From Leptospiraceae bacterium (GTDB lineage Bacteria; Spirochaetota; Leptospiria; Leptospirales; Leptospiraceae): a DNA stretch of 52,087 nucleotides. Location of the stretch: assembly GCA_947458405.1 (NCBI GenBank), contig CANGZW010000013.1, positions 1 through 52,087 of the forward strand, given 5' to 3'. The notes under the pieces are model-generated. The model was given only the letters and a program-made list of their open reading frames with translations. It was not told where the DNA came from and searched no databases. This document shows, piece after piece, positions 19,910 to 28,880 of this stretch. The position numbers and the translations under genes were made by a program. Each line of letters opens with the position of its first letter. Position 1 is the stretch's first letter.

Positions 19910-20863
19910 TTATTTTATTCTGTTTACATTGAAAGTAAAATATTTTATACTTTGGTTTCCATTAAAATCTTCAGCTCTAACCTCAATATTATTTTGACCC
20001 GATCTAAAATTTAAATCCCCAATATAGTAATTCCCTTTATAATATAAGTCATCAAATCTTAAGCCTGTTTCATTAGTCCAATACTGACCCTCTAAAGAAA
20101 TAGAATCAAATTTACTTTTTTTTATGACCTTATTATTTACTGAAAATTCAACTATGTGAACACCCCTTTTTTGGCCAGATTTTTCACCTGTATCATGTAT
20201 ATTGATAGTAATAGGAAATTCTCTTGAGATATTTATATTTTCACCATCATTTATATATGTATAATTTTCTCCATTGGTAAGAATAAGACTACCAATAAAA
20301 GGAGGCTTTGAATCTTCCACTTTTGATAAAATCGTAAGTGGATTAATAATTCGTCTTCCATTTTCTTTGGCTATAATAAAATGTAAGTGAGATCCACTGG
20401 AGTGTCCTGTATTACCAGTTTTTCCGATAACATCCCCTTTTTTGATAATTCTCCTGTTTAGAAAATCATCCTCTCTACCTTCCTTTAGGTGGTAATAAGC
20501 AGAAAGCATTCCATTCCCATGATTGATCCAAATGCAATTTCCACTTCCAAATTCTCCCGAGAAGGGGTTATCGCTCATATACCGAGAATATACGATTGTG
20601 CCGGAACCAATACTCAGTATATTTTCATTATCCGATGATATATCTACTCCATTGTGAAAGTGATCACCTCTTGATTCACCAAATAATGAAGTTAATCTGT
20701 TGGAGAGAGAGTCAGTTAGAATCGGCCAATTAAAGTCTAGGGTTTCGGAGTTTAAATAATAAAGTGGGGAGCCAATAAGTAAAATAATTAAAAAATTATA
20801 AATGAGATTATTTTTTTTATGTTTAAAGGATTGTAGTTTTCTGAAAATTAGTTTTAGGTTCAT
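19910..20863 (-). CDS. M23-family peptidase with C-terminal beta domain
   Basis: This predicted periplasmic peptidoglycan hydrolase has an N-terminal membrane anchor or uncleaved signal at about 18-37. A LytM domain (about 60-185) has HNGVD and SGSHLHF motifs, with HGNGMLSAYYHL supplying the remaining catalytic His. The C-terminal ~120 residues form an added beta-sandwich-like region (KRGVHIVEFSVNN, NNIEVRAEDFNGNQS) resembling the Ig-like tails of some secreted M23 proteins. All metal ligands are present. No good ribosome site is visible. It is divergent from the sigma factor gene across 75 nt. Confidence 0.85.
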   Translation of the reverse strand: MNLKLIFRKLQSFKHKKNNLIYNFLIILLIGSPLYYLNSETLDFNWPILTDSLSNRLTSLFGESRGDHFHNGVDISSDNENILSIGSGTIVYSRYMSDNPFSGEFGSGNCIWINHGNGMLSAYYHLKEGREDDFLNRRIIKKGDVIGKTGNTGHSSGSHLHFIIAKENGRRIINPLTILSKVEDSKPPFIGSLILTNGENYTYINDGENINISREFPITINIHDTGEKSGQKRGVHIVEFSVNNKVIKKSKFDSISLEGQYWTNETGLRFDDLYYKGNYYIGDLNFRSGQNNIEVRAEDFNGNQSIKYFTFNVNRIK

Positions 20864-20938: not shown

Positions 20939-21844
20939 ATGTCAATTTTTTCCGAAAAAAATATCAATGAAATAGTTACTTCTTGTGGAAAAGGAGATGC
21001 AGAGTCCTTAAATTATTTTTTTGAAAAGTATTCAGTAGAAATCTATAACTTTCCCATCCGAATATTTCATATGACAGAGGACGAGGCTGGAGATTATTTT
21101 ATTTATACCTTTGAAAGACTAAAAGATGGAAGGAAGTTTAGTCAGTTCAATCAAAAATCTAGTTTTAAAACATGGTTTTTTGCTGTTCTTCGGAATATGC
21201 TTATTGATTGGAAGAAAGGACAAAAAGAAGTAAAAACAACAAAAAGTTACAAAGTAAACAAGGATGGACAGGAATATTTTTCCATCGAGTCGGAATCCGA
21301 TGAATATTTTGAAAAAATACACACACAAACAGAAATTACTCAGGATTTTAATACAGTAGTTTCCTCTTTAAAAATTGAGAGTAGGGTATTGTTTAAATTA
21401 GCTTATATCTACTATTTAAATTTAAATGGGGAGGAGATAGAATATTTACTCCGGGTCTCGAGTTTAACCCAAGAAGAATTAAGGCAAAAAATATTTTCAA
21501 TTAGAGAATACTTAGTAGATAGGGACTCGGAATTGATAGAAGAAGAGTCTAAATTAACCTATATTTTTACCCAAATTCAGGAATTAGAATTTATTAAAAA
21601 AAATGGAGAAGTAAAAATATTTCAGGATAATCTTCCGGGAAAACATAAATTAGAAGAATCAATACATAAGAAAAGAGAGCAAAGAAGAAAATTATTGGAA
21701 AAAAGAGGAAAATCTCATTTTCCAATAAGAACACCATTTAAGATCATATCAGAGCTTCTTCCCATGAAAGAGATGGCTATCAGCCTTGCGTTGACCAGAA
21801 TAATTGAAAAAATTGAAATATTATTAAAAAATAGTGATAAATAA
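20939..21844 (+). CDS. ECF-like RNA polymerase sigma factor (first gene of CHAT operon)
   Basis: This is a predicted alternative sigma factor. Region 2 covers about residues 20-95: a helix reading AESLNYFFEKYSVEIYNF, then DEAGDYFIYTFERL, then KSSFKTWFFAVLRNMLIDWKK, which matches the -10 recognition and core-binding helices of ECF factors. Region 4 is divergent; a helix-turn-helix may lie at about 160-190 (LLRVSSLTQEELRQKIFSIREYL). A further ~110 residues follow, highly charged and ending in a helical segment, which is longer than usual ECF proteins. No ribosome site precedes ATG 20939. The next gene follows after 39 nt with AAGGAAA. It heads an operon with a candidate anti-sigma, a CHAT protease and a YkgJ protein. 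Confidence 0.82.
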   Translation: MSIFSEKNINEIVTSCGKGDAESLNYFFEKYSVEIYNFPIRIFHMTEDEAGDYFIYTFERLKDGRKFSQFNQKSSFKTWFFAVLRNMLIDWKKGQKEVKTTKSYKVNKDGQEYFSIESESDEYFEKIHTQTEITQDFNTVVSSLKIESRVLFKLAYIYYLNLNGEEIEYLLRVSSLTQEELRQKIFSIREYLVDRDSELIEEESKLTYIFTQIQELEFIKKNGEVKIFQDNLPGKHKLEESIHKKREQRRKLLEKRGKSHFPIRTPFKIISELLPMKEMAISLALTRIIEKIEILLKNSDK

Positions 21845-21883
21845 AATATTATTTTTTAGTCTAAATTTTCTAAGGAAATACTG

Positions 21884-22621
21884 ATGAAAGAAATAGGAAA
21901 AGAGAATATCCCCTGTGGTCATAACCAGAATCATTTTGAGGAAGACTTTGAATTAAATGAAAATTCACTTCATTGCGATAACTGTCTTGAGAGTTTGCTA
22001 GAAAAAGAGATAATAATTACATCAATTATAAAATATGAGATAGATGAGAGCTTACTTTCAGAGTCAGATAAAATTTCCAATGAGTTTTCAAGCCAAATTG
22101 AAAGTGATAAATATGAATTATTATCACAAAAATTAGAAAAAAAACCTCTTCCTGATTTTTTAAAAAATTATATAAATCTCAATCTAAATAATAAAAAAGA
22201 AAACCATAGTGATACAATTGTAGTTAGAATTTTTAAGGAAGGAGCTAGGCTCTTGCACACAGCATTTTTAGAATCTAATATAAATATTCAAAGAAATGTC
22301 TTACCCAGTGTAAGAGGAGGAGAATCTCCCACTTATATATCAATCAGAGAAAATTCTAATAAAGGGTTAGATTTAGTTTATAATGTAATGCGTGAAAATG
22401 AAAAAGAGGCCTATCTTTCTATTGATTTTAAAAACAATCCTTTTAATTATAATCAAGTTAATCTAAAAAAGAATAACAGATTTATTTATTCTAAAAAAAT
22501 TGATAACTCAGCTGTTGTTTCATTTTCTGGTTTAAAAGCTGGAGATTATTCTGTGGAGTTAAATGGTTCTGATTTTTCAAAACTAATTTGTATTACAATA
22601 CTTACTGATGAAATGATTTAA
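21884..22621 (+). CDS. Cys/His-rich protein in the anti-sigma position, candidate CHAT substrate
   Basis: I do not recognise a full-length family. The first 35 residues carry Cys11, His13, His17, His30, Cys31 and Cys34, a likely zinc site reminiscent of ZAS anti-sigma factors but not the exact HxxxCxxC pattern. A charged linker (about 50-105) follows. A C-terminal beta-rich domain at about 105-245 ends in SFSGLKAGDYSVEL and LICITILTDE. No TM helix is present, so the protein is soluble. Its place between a sigma factor and a protease, with 2 nt to the CHAT gene, suggests a sigma inhibitor that is removed by cleavage. That function is inference from gene order. Confidence 0.6.
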   Translation: MKEIGKENIPCGHNQNHFEEDFELNENSLHCDNCLESLLEKEIIITSIIKYEIDESLLSESDKISNEFSSQIESDKYELLSQKLEKKPLPDFLKNYINLNLNNKKENHSDTIVVRIFKEGARLLHTAFLESNINIQRNVLPSVRGGESPTYISIRENSNKGLDLVYNVMRENEKEAYLSIDFKNNPFNYNQVNLKKNNRFIYSKKIDNSAVVSFSGLKAGDYSVELNGSDFSKLICITILTDEMI

Positions 22622-22623
22622 AT

Positions 22624-24408
22624 ATGCTAGATATATTTATAGATAGAGTAGGAAATGTTAATGTATTTAATATATTGAATACAACTTCATCAGTTTCTAC
22701 ATCTCATATTCAATCTATAATTGACTCTGATTTAATAAATGAATACATAAAAGAAATTGAAAATATTGCAAGAATTTCCAGAACTTTAGATAATAAAAAT
22801 ACTAAATTTCCTGATTTATTAGGTGAACTCAAATCGTTGGGAGAGACTTTTTTTGATCAGTTTTTTCCCGATGAAATTTCTCGTGCATTGAGATTTACCA
22901 GTGAAAGATATCTACATTTAAATTTAGATTTAGGCTTGAAAGATATCCCTTGGGAAATGTTGTACGACGGACATCAGTTTTTAGGGGATAAGTTTTGCAT
23001 TGGAAAAACTGTAAAAGGGAGTACCGGAAATTTAAAAATAGAGGAATCTAAAAAAATAAAAATGCTTATAATTGCAGATCCTACTGAAGACTTAGAGTGG
23101 GCTCAAAGAGAAGGTGAAGAATTATTTAAAATTCTTTCAGAAAAAGTATCACAAAATTTATTAGAACTTCAGTATTTATCTGGAAGCCAAATTACAAAGC
23201 TAAAATTATTGAGTCATATCAAAGGAAAAAATATAATACACTATGCAGGGCATTTATTTTTTTCTGATGAGCCAATGGAAAATGGTTGGTTGTTATCTGG
23301 CAATAAAGTTTTAAAGGCAAGGGAAATTGTAAATAGTGGATTTGCGGCTAATCTTGTATTTAGTAATTCATGTCAATCTTCCAAGTCAATTGATACAAAT
23401 ATAAATAGTTCTATCATGAATTATTTTGCAGGATCATTTCTTTCTTCTGGGATAAATTCATTTATAGGAACAAATTGGGAAGTATCAGACAATAAAAAAA
23501 CATTAGATTTTACAAAGAGATTTTACCTAAATATTTTTAAAGGTATGTCATTAGGGGAGTCATTATTTCAGTCTAGAGAGTTTGCAAGAAGAAACTATGA
23601 ATCATGGGATATTACATGGGCGAATTACTCATTGCATGGTTCACCGATCAATATTTTACTTACCACAAAAAAAGAATCCAGTGCAAAAGTTATAAATTTA
23701 AATCTTATTAAAAAACATTTTCCCATTAATATTTCTCGAACATATATAAATTTTAGCATGAAAGATCAGATGAATGAAAGTGCTAAAGTATTGTATAAAA
23801 TGATACTGCAATCTTTTGAAGAGTTTTCAAAAATTATAGGAATTATTATTTTTAGTGATCATACACATAAATCACTAGGAAAAGTAAGTTTTGAATCTAA
23901 AGTCTCACTCCAAAAATGGTGGGAAAATATTTTTTTATGTATGAGTAATTTTAAAAAATTAGAAATTTCAATGATTCTAGATACTATTATGGGAATTCTT
24001 TCTACTCATCGAGATATGATTTTTAAAATGGTTAACTGGATGGAACTCTTTTCTAAGCAAGATTTACAAGAAGAAATAGTTCAGGGTTATCTAGTTACAT
24101 TTCAATATTATTATGAAAATATACTGATGGAATTAAATGAGTTTCAGAATATTCATTTGTACTACTTTCCAATTAATTCTAAATATTTTTATATAATGGA
24201 TGGTATAGATCCTATTGAATTACAGTTAGAATCTATGGATGAAAGTCTTTTAAAAATTAAAAATGAATTTAATGGAAAGGTTGTACTTTTTCATAAATTA
24301 AAAAAAAGTTTTTTATCATTGAATGGTTTAGTTCCTGATAATTCTGAAAATATGATCCATTCTTATAACTTAACTCTATCTAATTTTCCCACATATATAA
24401 CTACCTAA
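22624..24408 (+). CDS. CHAT-domain caspase-like protease
   Basis: This is a predicted cysteine protease of the CHAT/separase group. An N-terminal region (1-140) contains the DIPWEMLYDG segment that normally precedes CHAT cores. The protease core at about 145-345 has IIHYAGH with catalytic His210, and LVFSNSCQSS with catalytic Cys250. SFIGTNWEVSD and LHGSPIN complete the fold. The dyad is intact, so activity is expected. Residues ~350-594 match nothing I know; they are helical with no TPR repeats that I can see. It starts 2 nt after the Cys/His protein and ends 1 nt before the YkgJ gene, so expression is tightly coupled. Confidence 0.88.
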   Translation: MLDIFIDRVGNVNVFNILNTTSSVSTSHIQSIIDSDLINEYIKEIENIARISRTLDNKNTKFPDLLGELKSLGETFFDQFFPDEISRALRFTSERYLHLNLDLGLKDIPWEMLYDGHQFLGDKFCIGKTVKGSTGNLKIEESKKIKMLIIADPTEDLEWAQREGEELFKILSEKVSQNLLELQYLSGSQITKLKLLSHIKGKNIIHYAGHLFFSDEPMENGWLLSGNKVLKAREIVNSGFAANLVFSNSCQSSKSIDTNINSSIMNYFAGSFLSSGINSFIGTNWEVSDNKKTLDFTKRFYLNIFKGMSLGESLFQSREFARRNYESWDITWANYSLHGSPINILLTTKKESSAKVINLNLIKKHFPINISRTYINFSMKDQMNESAKVLYKMILQSFEEFSKIIGIIIFSDHTHKSLGKVSFESKVSLQKWWENIFLCMSNFKKLEISMILDTIMGILSTHRDMIFKMVNWMELFSKQDLQEEIVQGYLVTFQYYYENILMELNEFQNIHLYYFPINSKYFYIMDGIDPIELQLESMDESLLKIKNEFNGKVVLFHKLKKSFLSLNGLVPDNSENMIHSYNLTLSNFPTYITT

Positions 24409-24409
24409 A

Positions 24410-25120
24410 ATGTCTCTATGCCAATCTAAAAATACTTCATGTGGTGCTTGTTGTGGTATTTTTAATTTAGATTTGAATAAAGAAGAAATAAATGATTTAT
24501 TAAATCTTAGAACTTCTCAATTTAAATCAGATGTTGATTTTAAAAATAAATGGACTATTGCAGAATATAGAAAAAAAAGAGAAATTGAAGAATCATATGT
24601 ACTACGTAAAGATGATACTACATATGTATGCCCATTCTTAGGATTTATTGAAAATAAGAAAATTGGATGCATGATTCATCCATCTATTACTGGTGATCCT
24701 TTGAGTCAGAATTTTTCATTTTATGGATCAAGTATTTGTCAGGGTTATGAGTGTAAAAATAAAGAGAGAAAAGATATAGATCTCATTGAAAATTTAATCG
24801 AAGAACTTAAAATAGATTCTTATTATGAATACTCTAATATTTTTTCAGATCATATAACTTTAAGTTTAATCCTAGAGTTTTTTAATTCCTGTGGGTATGA
24901 CATAAAAAAAGTTTTGTTTGAAGAGAAAGATTTATTCTTAGAATTGTTAAATTATAAATTTAAAAAAGGGATTTTACTAAACCAAACATCTTTTGAATTT
25001 GAAGAAGCTACAGAGTTAAGTATATTAGATAGATTATTATTTAGATTGTCTATTGATTTAAAGGAAGATATATACAAGAGGCTTTTGGAAATTTCTAAAA
25101 ACCCCCTAAGGGGTTTTTAG
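24410..25120 (+). CDS. YkgJ-family cysteine-cluster protein
   Basis: This 236-residue protein has the metal-binding cysteine cluster of the YkgJ (zinc/iron-chelating) family: Cys4, then SCGACC at 10-15. Further Cys lie in TYVCPFLG, KIGCMIHP and SSICQGYEC, the last matching the distal CxxxxC part of the family. YkgJ biochemistry is poorly known; Fe-S or zinc binding is proposed. The C-terminal half (~110-236) is helical and has no recognised domain. It is the last gene of the sigma/CHAT operon, 1 nt after the CHAT stop. Its last eight codons form the operon terminator. It may act as a redox or metal sensor, or modify a partner. Confidence 0.8.
   Translation: MSLCQSKNTSCGACCGIFNLDLNKEEINDLLNLRTSQFKSDVDFKNKWTIAEYRKKREIEESYVLRKDDTTYVCPFLGFIENKKIGCMIHPSITGDPLSQNFSFYGSSICQGYECKNKERKDIDLIENLIEELKIDSYYEYSNIFSDHITLSLILEFFNSCGYDIKKVLFEEKDLFLELLNYKFKKGILLNQTSFEFEEATELSILDRLLFRLSIDLKEDIYKRLLEISKNPLRGF
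25097..25118. terminator. Strong intrinsic terminator inside the end of the YkgJ gene
   Basis: A 9-bp stem AAAAACCCC / GGGGTTTTT with a CTAA loop encodes the last residues (NPLRGF) and runs to the TAG. A/T tracts on both sides let it also serve the convergent phasin-like gene, whose stop is 9 nt away. Confidence 0.85.
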
Positions 25121-25128
25121 TGTAATTA

Positions 25129-25404
25129 TTATTTTTTTTCTTGGTTGTTTAATGCTTCATCTGCTTTAGCTTTAACTTCTTCAAATCTAGTTCTAGCTTC
25201 AGTGAGTAACTTATCTATCTCTTTAAATGCTTCTTCTGTGTATTTACGTATATTATTTGAAATTTCACTCTGATCTGCCGCACCTTTTTCTGAAAGGTCT
25301 TTTAGTCTGCTTTCAATTTGAGTAAATATCTTTTCTGATTCGGTTTTTACGCTTGATGCCGCTCCGATCATAAAGTTTAATGCATCTTTAATTTCTTTTT
25401 CCAT
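25129..25404 (-). CDS. Phasin-like coiled-coil protein
   Basis: This 91-residue, almost wholly helical protein (KEIKDALNFMIGAASSVKTE, then heptad-like charged repeats to ADEALNNQEKK) resembles the small phasin-related proteins of Leptospira and PhaF-type granule proteins. Such proteins coat polyhydroxyalkanoate granules or act as cytoplasmic scaffolds. No polyhydroxyalkanoate synthase is in the window, so the role is open. AGAGG precedes the ATG. Confidence 0.65.
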   Translation of the reverse strand: MEKEIKDALNFMIGAASSVKTESEKIFTQIESRLKDLSEKGAADQSEISNNIRKYTEEAFKEIDKLLTEARTRFEEVKAKADEALNNQEKK

Positions 25405-26633: not shown

Positions 26634-28880
26634 CTATTTCTTTAAGATCATATCTTTATTGATTTGATGAATGTATTCAGCACCTGTAATATTCATCGTA
26701 TTTTTTAATTCATTGGTAAACTGATTATATAAAAATTTAACACCTGCAACATCACCACCAACTGCATAAATTGAAATAGGTCTTCCGATTAAAACTGCAT
26801 CTGCTCCCAAACTGATCATTTTAAAAACATCCATTCCAGTTCTTATTCCACCATCGACTAGTACAGGTATTCTCTTGTATATCTTTTCCACTATTTTTGG
26901 TAAAACCCTCGCAGTGCCTGGCATTTCGTCCATTACTCGTCCCCCATGATTTGACACAACTATGGCACTAGCTCCAATGGAAAGTGCCAATTCTGCATCC
27001 TCGGGAGTCATAATTCCTTTGATAATAAATGGTAGTTTTGTATAACTTCTAATTCTTTCTAAGTCATTTATATTTCGACTTGGTCCTTGTTGATTTTTTT
27101 GAACTAATGTCTTAAAATTAAAGGCATCAATGTCCATTCCTAAAGCTAAAATACCCTGTTTCTCGGCTTCCTGGAATCTCTCTTTTAAGAGACCCTCATC
27201 TGCTCTAGGCTTACAAATCAAAACACCATTTCCTTCAAATTTCTTTAGAACACTTAGCATAGACAGATATTTATCTGGAGTTGCTCCATCTCCAAGCCAT
27301 CCTAGTGTTCCTGACTCTAATGAACCCTGTACTACAATAGATGAATATTGTGACTCATCTATCGCATTATTCATATTCGTGGTAGCACCTGTCATAGGAG
27401 CAGACATTATAGGTATTGATAATTCTCTTCCCAGGAAGTTATAATTTGTTTTAGGTGTTACATTTTCTCTAATATAGCGGGGAAGTATTGAGTATTCTTT
27501 TAGGGATCGTGAGTTATCCTGAAAAGTTTCCATTTTCCCAACTCCCCCCATGCCCGGAACACCAGAAGCACAATCAGTTCCGTCGCAAATTTTACAAACC
27601 CAACAAATTTCTTTTCCAAATTTTTGCCTTGCAGTCTGACTTATTATCTTTTCATTGAGTGAGTAGTACGAATCAGTTTCAAATCGTATTGTATTTTTGA
27701 CTTTTTCAAATATTTCTTCACTCTCTCTTAAAGTGTTGCAAGTTATGATTACATGGCCTGATTTTTCTATATTATTTGTAGGATCACTGATGATATCTCC
27801 CACTTTACTTTGAATAAATATTTCATTGACTCCATCGATGTCTTCTGCTTCTTCTATGCCTGTAATGGAAACTAATTTGCCCGGGCTAGCGAGAAAAGCT
27901 CTTTCAATAGAAACTTTATTAAATTTTTCTTCTAAGTCATCGGGTTCTTCACCTAAAGCTATTAATACTGCCGCTCTATTTAGATTGATTCCCGTAGAAA
28001 GTGGAAACGTATAAGCAGACATATATCCTCCACTCAATCTTGCGGCAATTTCACCAATTTTTACACCCTGAGGAGTAACTTTAATATCTCCCTTTCCGGC
28101 TCCAATCGTGATACCCAATGCCTTCATTCCTAAAAACATAATCCGCTCAATTTCTTTTTTTGTTTCATCGGGCAGAGAGGAGGGCATATTATGCCCGACT
28201 TCAATAAAGAAAGGTTCTCTTTCTATTATTCTATCAGCAAGTCCTGTAATACGAAAGTTCCCATTCCAGGTTAAGGCATCAACGCTAACCTCCGGACCTT
28301 CCATGTATTCCTCTAGAATCATTTCTCCCGTGGGAGAATACTTTTTGGCATGCTTAAAGGCTAATTGTAGCTCTTCTCTATTATTGACTTTAATAACTCC
28401 TCTAGCACCCATGTTGTCTGCTGGCTTCATCACTAAGGGAAAACTAAGAAAATCAAGGGCATCCCTAGCATCCTGAATATTCCAAACAGCCGCAAATTGA
28501 GGAATGGGCACATTGAACTCTTTCAGTCTTTTTCGCATTTTTATTTTATTGGAAGCGGCTTCTGCATCCTTAAATCTAATCCCAGGGAGACCTAGAGCAT
28601 TTGCTACTGCTGCAACTGTCATACTAGCATCGGTACCAGCAGTGATAACAGCATGAATCGGCTCTTTATCTGCGTACTTTTTTGCTTCTCTGACCATACC
28701 TTCAATATCTTTTGTACTCATAATGATTTTATCATGGGCAAATTCAAAACCGGGGGAGGTCGGATTCATGTCGGCGACCAGAGTTTTTAATCTCATAGAT
28801 CGAGCGGTTTCAATAATAGGGCATTGCAGTAGCCCCCCACCAATAATGAGGATAGTTTTATCTTTGATTCTATTTAACAA
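26634..28880 (-). CDS. ATP-grasp / FMN alpha-hydroxy-acid oxidase fusion protein
   Basis: This is a two-enzyme chain. Residues 1-~400 are an ATP-grasp carboxylate-amine ligase: ILIIGGGLLQCPIIETARSM opening, VMKPADNMGARGV, MILEEYMEGPEVSVD, KIGEIAARLSGG. A Cys cluster (ICWVCKICDGTDC, about 421-433) leads into VPGMGGVG and an FMN-dependent TIM barrel (~450-748) of the lactate/glycolate-oxidase family, with catalytic SNHGGR and VLVDGGIRTGMDVFKM. The barrel half looks like clostridial alpha-hydroxy-acid oxidizing proteins that also begin with a Cys-rich PGMGGxG. The substrate is unknown. A TTG start follows GAGG by 5 nt. It is 23 nt behind mnmA and 6 nt before the PilZ-like gene. Confidence 0.88.
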   Translation of the reverse strand: MLNRIKDKTILIIGGGLLQCPIIETARSMRLKTLVADMNPTSPGFEFAHDKIIMSTKDIEGMVREAKKYADKEPIHAVITAGTDASMTVAAVANALGLPGIRFKDAEAASNKIKMRKRLKEFNVPIPQFAAVWNIQDARDALDFLSFPLVMKPADNMGARGVIKVNNREELQLAFKHAKKYSPTGEMILEEYMEGPEVSVDALTWNGNFRITGLADRIIEREPFFIEVGHNMPSSLPDETKKEIERIMFLGMKALGITIGAGKGDIKVTPQGVKIGEIAARLSGGYMSAYTFPLSTGINLNRAAVLIALGEEPDDLEEKFNKVSIERAFLASPGKLVSITGIEEAEDIDGVNEIFIQSKVGDIISDPTNNIEKSGHVIITCNTLRESEEIFEKVKNTIRFETDSYYSLNEKIISQTARQKFGKEICWVCKICDGTDCASGVPGMGGVGKMETFQDNSRSLKEYSILPRYIRENVTPKTNYNFLGRELSIPIMSAPMTGATTNMNNAIDESQYSSIVVQGSLESGTLGWLGDGATPDKYLSMLSVLKKFEGNGVLICKPRADEGLLKERFQEAEKQGILALGMDIDAFNFKTLVQKNQQGPSRNINDLERIRSYTKLPFIIKGIMTPEDAELALSIGASAIVVSNHGGRVMDEMPGTARVLPKIVEKIYKRIPVLVDGGIRTGMDVFKMISLGADAVLIGRPISIYAVGGDVAGVKFLYNQFTNELKNTMNITGAEYIHQINKDMILKK

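Follow-up and report, generated by a model that had tools for sequence, protein, structure and literature searches.

What is a caspase-like protease doing in the same operon as a sigma factor when no CRISPR system is at hand? The question is raised by four plus-strand genes in the window, as we call the whole 52,087-nucleotide stretch of contig CANGZW010000013.1 (from a Leptospiraceae bacterium) that was analyzed. They encode an ECF-like sigma factor, a small protein with a Cys/His cluster, a CHAT protease, and a YkgJ-like Cys-cluster protein (Table 1). The gaps between them are 39, 2, and 1 nt, and a terminator closes the set, a layout given in a preliminary description of this DNA and borne out by the open reading frames and an 11-pair stem. 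A membrane-like segment is lacking in each of the four products. That description proposed that CHAT cleaves the Cys/His protein to release the sigma factor, with YkgJ providing a metal or redox input. The answer favored here, and considered fairly probable, is that CHAT cuts the second protein, an anti-sigma factor, after Arg144 and frees the sigma factor, making the operon a soluble, CRISPR-free proteolytic sigma switch.

Table 1. Features of the operon, numbered by position in the window
Feature	Position	Strand	Details
ECF-like sigma factor	20939-21844	+	301 aa; sigma2, internal sigma4-like segment ~140-195, further C-terminal HTH-like segment ~255-295
Anti-sigma (zf-HC2/ZAS-derived helical N-terminal domain, arginine loop, Ig-like C-terminal domain)	21884-22621	+	245 aa
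CHAT (clan CD) cysteine protease	22624-24408	+	594 aa; CHAT/separase-like part 1-345, separate mostly helical C-terminal domain 359-571
YkgJ-like Cys-cluster protein	24410-25120	+	236 aa
Intrinsic terminator	25095-25120	+	11-pair stem, then T-rich tail; overlaps last stop codon
Arg144 codon of anti-sigma, candidate P1 residue for CHAT (PSVR↓GG)	22313-22315	+	58/59 sequences across phyla
Catalytic His210 codon of CHAT	23251-23253	+	43/43 readable orthologues
Catalytic Cys250 codon of CHAT	23371-23373	+	43/43 readable orthologues
Asp289 codon of CHAT, candidate S1-pocket acid	23488-23490	+	43/43 readable orthologues

The surroundings of the operon hold no CRISPR parts: its neighbors are dnaE, M23, phasin-like, and PilZ genes, the window contains no array-like repeats, and both Cas7-11 and a CRISPR array are absent from the locus. 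PADLOC returned zero matches for the four proteins. A role in anti-phage defense was rejected because of this empty result and the near-universal, single-copy presence of the genes in the class. As for the flanks, the terminator stem overlaps the last codons and the stop of the YkgJ-like gene, and a phasin-like gene (25129-25404) converges on it from the far side; the stem may therefore act on either strand. On the other side, an M23 peptidase gene (19910-20863, minus strand) diverges from the sigma gene at a distance of 75 bp. Since it accompanies the sigma gene in the sister family too, it may share or receive regulation. Further along, a 748-aa open reading frame (26634-28880, minus strand) looks by inspection like a fusion of an ATP-grasp enzyme with an FMN-dependent alpha-hydroxyacid dehydrogenase-like domain, and it also adjoins the operon in two relatives (L039 and L040).

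The sigma factor is ECF-like, as first described, with a TIGR02937 (sigma70-ECF) score of 70 bits against a cut-off of 42.9 and a profile match to SigW (5wuq_A) over residues 16-169 (E 3.4e-10). Orthologues occur in 46 of the 48 genomes of the class sample, whose named matches are to Leptospiraceae, Leptospirales, and Turneriella-like lineages, and in all 30 that are near complete. Compact sigma2-sigma4 ECF factors have about 180-200 aa; this one has 301, with a conserved C-terminal extension that ends in an HTH-like segment. ECF groups carrying extensions are known (PMC8999054). Leptospira interrogans has an ECF factor of 301 aa listed as “unclassified,” LIC_10225 (PMC12655853), which by its size and description may be the orthologue of the protein in the window. 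A transposon mutant of lic10225 has been listed (PMC5100919), so the gene is probably dispensable in culture. No Leptospira species was among the named matches of the CHAT similarity search. Does the sigma factor control its own operon? No conserved promoter motif was found upstream of the sigma genes in the class, and self-regulation was rejected as a reading for that reason. TATAAT-like -10 boxes precede many of the Omnitrophota sigma genes.

The 245-aa second protein, judged by its homologues, is a zf-HC2-type anti-sigma factor by descent, fused to an Ig-like domain. The window protein itself has no zf-HC2 match, and its relatives carry the case. In a combined alignment of 59 members, 21 match zf-HC2, and the PDB matches of this alignment, weak as they are, are to RsiW (5wuq_C, E 0.035), DdvA (8rlz_A, E 0.31), and RsrA (E 0.89); among PDB sequences, the anti-sigma search gave no match to Csx30. 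The more distant class members bear at the N terminus the signature of zinc-type anti-sigma factors, C..H-x3-C-x2-C, and nearly all outgroup loci have H-x3-C-x2-C. The signature decays toward the family of the window, where the ligands are lost in most members, as they are in the sister family. In the window protein the H-x3-C-x2-C motif is incomplete and CxH...CxxC alone remains. The structural model has helices at residues 22-105 followed by 11 strands, and its beta-rich C-terminal part is similar to Ig-like domains, at scores that are modest (best Z 7.3). Orthologues are present in 44 of the 48 genomes. In three loci of one genus (L120, L121, and L123), the gene is parted from the sigma gene and adjoins a response-regulator-like gene; there the zinc ligands are gone and the arginine loop is retained.

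What does this decay mean for the proposed metal or redox input? The Cys/His cluster that had been described is present in the window, but it is unconserved even within the family, and with the zinc ligands lost so widely the claim that this protein senses metal or redox state fell. The assignment of the YkgJ-like protein is sub-threshold for PF03692 (E 0.073, 14.2 bits against a cut-off of 23) but is backed by its Cys cluster: eight cysteines and one histidine (C4, C11, C14, C15, C74, C87, H90, C110, and C115) are invariant in 17 orthologues, and 42 of the 48 genomes encode the protein. As a general input it is unsupported, because it adjoins CHAT in only one order of the class, lies apart from it in families f3-f6, and was not seen beside it in the other phyla examined. 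The full original scheme makes YkgJ a sensor of metal or redox state and has CHAT read the cluster of the Cys/His protein as the sensor; it can point to a YkgJ gene that starts 1 nt past CHAT and stays next to it in this order, with its invariant Cys/His set. Set against a motif that most family members and the sister family have lost, and against the separation of YkgJ from CHAT elsewhere, the scheme is very improbable. Unconserved ligands and a YkgJ gene linked in a single order leave a metal or redox input unsupported.

The third gene is a clear CHAT protease (PF12770, 91.9 bits against a cut-off of 24), and the intact His210/Cys250 dyad of the preliminary description was numbered correctly. 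The dyad and Asp289 are each kept in every readable class orthologue, and His210 and Cys250 are invariant in a 44-sequence cross-phylum alignment. The nearest folds to its model (pLDDT 87.9) are separase (5fc2_B, Z 26.8 over 308 residues), Csx29 (Z 23.7), and gingipain R (Z 21.2), followed by the CHAT part of DdvA (8rot, Z 20.5) and SAVED-CHAT (8tl0, Z 19.1). The intact dyad and the caspase/separase-like fold of the model predict an active clan CD protease. Orthologues were found in 44 of the 48 genomes. In other phyla, the protein carries differing domains, including C-terminal TPR, trypsin, DUF4384, and CsgG-like domains and, in one case, an N-terminal cyclase. Two examples from sigma/anti-sigma/CHAT loci are a fusion to a trypsin domain (L178:1776-4328) and a fusion to a guanylate cyclase domain and TPR (L184:5197-8418).

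Do these genes belong together? Within the class, the four are near universal, so their co-occurrence there is by itself no evidence of a link, and gene order must be considered. In the family of the window (8 genomes from 5 genera), all eight genomes show, as far as contigs allow, the same arrangement, a divergent M23 gene and then sigma, Cys/His protein, CHAT, and YkgJ, at family-wide identities of 44-57% for sigma and CHAT. This exact four-gene order is confined to the one family. Outside it, the sigma and Cys/His genes are in most cases still found together, often flanked by M23 and dnaE. In the sister family, CHAT and YkgJ follow pdxJ or acyP; in the remaining class families, CHAT follows an acyl-CoA ligase gene. 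CHAT is thus unlinked from the sigma/anti-sigma pair in families f2-f6, and the operon is not obligatory.

Beyond the class, the picture changes. Among 45 CHAT loci from Omnitrophota, Desulfobacterota, and Nitrospirota, picked by CHAT similarity only, the gene directly upstream could be called by script in 41, and all 41 show an anti-sigma profile match and/or H-x3-C-x2-C. One further locus (L205) has an anti-sigma upstream of CHAT by profile match that the script missed, and the other three (L181, L214, and L216) start too near a contig end to show the gene. A sigma factor was detected upstream by profile in 33 of the 45, and several more have sigma-like open reading frames there. Other Spirochaetota show two further arrangements: CHAT followed by sigma and anti-sigma (L222, L224, L225, L226, and L228, with L223 cut off after sigma) and a divergent pair (L232, L237, L239, L241, and L243). 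The trio therefore clusters in at least four phyla in differing orders, a repetition that suggests a functional tie and is hard to explain otherwise. Linkage that stopped at close relatives, an outcome the preliminary description had named as counting against it, was thus not observed: the trio recurs well past them, though the complete set of four in its exact order does not. A recent fusion of two unrelated operons in one family was dropped as the main reading, the trio being found in other phyla; for the same reason the joined order may be old and the split in the sister families derived.

Another sigma/anti-sigma/CHAT operon lies in the genome from which the window comes (L004:5710-8423, contig C16, minus strand). 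Its products are a 190-aa sigma factor, a zinc-less anti-sigma-like protein of 214 aa with the loop AYRGSKPG, and a 493-aa CHAT protein with a probable membrane segment near residue 324; a relative occurs in L238, from another family member. A third CHAT protein of the genome (L005:1714-3306, contig C135, 530 aa) has no sigma gene detected nearby.

Could CHAT simply act in the same stress pathway as an ordinary sigma/anti-sigma pair, for instance as a death or quality-control protease under shared regulation, and never touch the anti-sigma? The unlinked genes of families f2-f6 would fit, as would four CHAT genes of the phylum that have no sigma neighbors (L230, L231, L234, and L235). Such a separate role nevertheless looks unlikely, given linkage that recurs in at least four phyla and several orders, the occurrence of anti-sigma and CHAT within one natural protein, DdvA, and, as described next, a near-invariant Arg in the anti-sigma loop that is lost jointly with Asp289.

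If CHAT does cleave the anti-sigma factor, where would it cut? In the cross-phylum alignment, Arg144 is present in 58 of 59 anti-sigma sequences (in the last, from L178, the Arg is one column off), and the neighboring columns are conserved at 15-59%. The model places it in a loop (residues 140-149) between two strands, ahead of the Ig-like domain. Most of the remaining strongly conserved positions belong to the Ig core, which makes Arg144 stand out. The P1' residue that follows it is small, mostly S, G, or N. Arg-specific clan CD enzymes have an acidic S1 residue (PMC10317155, PMC4626109), and human separase grips the P1 Arg through Asp2070 (PMC10317155), 41 residues beyond its catalytic Cys2029 (PMC9729208). 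Asp289 of CHAT lies 39 residues after Cys250 and, from this spacing and the modeled fold, is the candidate equivalent of the separase residue. A direct PDB sequence alignment, sought to fix the S1 Asp, was dropped because the PDB sequence search with CHAT gave no match to separase.

The two residues also appear to change together. One lineage of Spirochaetota has lost the Arg from the anti-sigma loop (APVL-G type), and its CHAT has Leu, Phe, or Tyr in place of Asp289. Counted by locus, 34 pairs combine Arg/Lys with Asp and 6 lack both; the 2 discordant pairs are L228, which keeps the Arg and has Leu for Asp, and L178, through the alignment slip. This count omits three loci that fit poorly: L233, which has Ala and an ambiguous pairing, and L238 and L004, whose Asp is one position off. 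The associated p value of 9e-6 ignores relatedness and does not reflect 42 independent events; the six joint losses fall in related Spirochaetota families and may be a single one. Arg144 could also have a structural role instead of marking a cleavage site.

Is the loop a substrate or an inhibitor? The Arg loop might be a pseudosubstrate that holds CHAT off, so that withdrawal of the anti-sigma by sigma or a signal would unleash CHAT on other proteins and make it an effector rather than a sigma release factor. There is precedent in the Arg of the gingipain R prodomain, which fills S1 as an inhibitor, and in securin, which inhibits separase as a pseudosubstrate (PMC4357240, PMC10317155), and the Arg/Asp covariation suits a bound inhibitor equally well. 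Securin, however, swaps the P1 Arg for a hydrophobic residue, whereas the retained Arg and small P1' residue here look cleavable, and in Craspase it is the partner bound to sigma that is cleaved (PMC10028731, PMC9729208). Inhibition by the loop is accordingly judged improbable, and cleavage after Arg144 remains the preferred reading.

How might such a switch work? The genes, their homology, their recurring linkage, the conserved Arg and Asp, and the predicted folds are what the analysis shows, and from these a course of sigma binding, triggering, cleavage, and release may be pieced together. (i) The N-terminal domain of the anti-sigma factor would hold the ECF sigma factor. (ii) CHAT, once activated, would take the exposed anti-sigma loop into its active site. 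The signal probably enters through its C-terminal part, which varies between lineages (TPR, trypsin, or DUF4384; a helical domain here). (iii) Arg144 would fit the S1 pocket formed by Asp289, and the cut after it would part the sigma-binding portion from the Ig-like domain. (iv) The inhibitor would then fail or be degraded, leaving the sigma factor to transcribe its regulon. The preliminary interpretation is thus partly supported, its core being stronger than a reader of the sequence alone could know: the idea of a CRISPR-free CHAT protease acting on a sigma inhibitor gains from the zf-HC2 anti-sigma homology, the cluster in at least four phyla, and the Arg/S1 covariation. The model pins down one predicted cleavage residue (R144) and one predicted specificity residue (D289) in soluble-looking proteins. 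Should it hold, and should LIC_10225 be the orthologue, it would supply a candidate regulator for a sigma factor that is so far an orphan. There is perhaps an even chance that these loci belong to a widespread family of sigma switches, separase-like and independent of CRISPR, that occurs in at least four phyla and is built on one protease platform (an N-terminal sheet plus CHAT), a standard soluble anti-sigma cut after a fixed Arg, and interchangeable sensor domains on CHAT that admit different signals, with Craspase and DdvA as special cases. A sigma/ZAS/CHAT operon did not turn up in a literature search that covered work other than the main ECF classification paper.

How does this arrangement compare with known systems? 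The proposed switch would work like the protease branch of Craspase and like DdvA, yet it belongs to neither. One fold match, 8tl0, is the SAVED-CHAT (PCaspase) of the type III-B cascade, in which CHAT stands upstream of sigma-factor regulation and is activated by a CRISPR cyclic nucleotide through SAVED. The likeness is in the CHAT fold and in the place proposed here for the protease, ahead of sigma control; a SAVED domain was not found here. RseA/DegS and RsiW proteolysis involves membrane proteins cut from the envelope side, whereas the present set is soluble and its protease caspase-like. ECF54-type sigma factors, too, have CHAT genes as genomic neighbors, and proteolysis has been proposed for them, but they are described without an anti-sigma (PMC8999054), which is the constant partner here. 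In the Myxococcus xanthus DdvS/DdvA system, the anti-sigma factor is DdvA (PMC4374960); a CHAT domain forms part of its solved structure (8rot), and DdvA matches both halves of the present pair. It is, however, a single transmembrane protein, while the present pair consists of separate soluble proteins, CHAT and an anti-sigma that carries an Ig-like domain and an Arg loop. A further parallel is Craspase/CASP (type III-E), in which a separase-like CHAT protease cuts a flexible loop in the inhibitor of an ECF sigma factor encoded next to it (PMC10028731). Both systems place CHAT beside an ECF sigma factor and its known or predicted inhibitor, and the CHAT model matches the Csx29 fold (Z 23.7), but the window locus has no Cas7-11 or CRISPR array nearby and its inhibitor is a ZAS/Ig protein. 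The chemistry of P1 and S1 is also opposite: Csx29 has Lys at the S1 Asp position (PMC9729208) and cleaves after Leu/Met (PMC9729208, PMC10028731), and the present system would pair Asp with Arg. CHAT-protease control of a sigma inhibitor has hitherto been known mainly within CRISPR immunity; if the present reading is true, a more common signaling device of bacteria may have been borrowed by the CRISPR versions.
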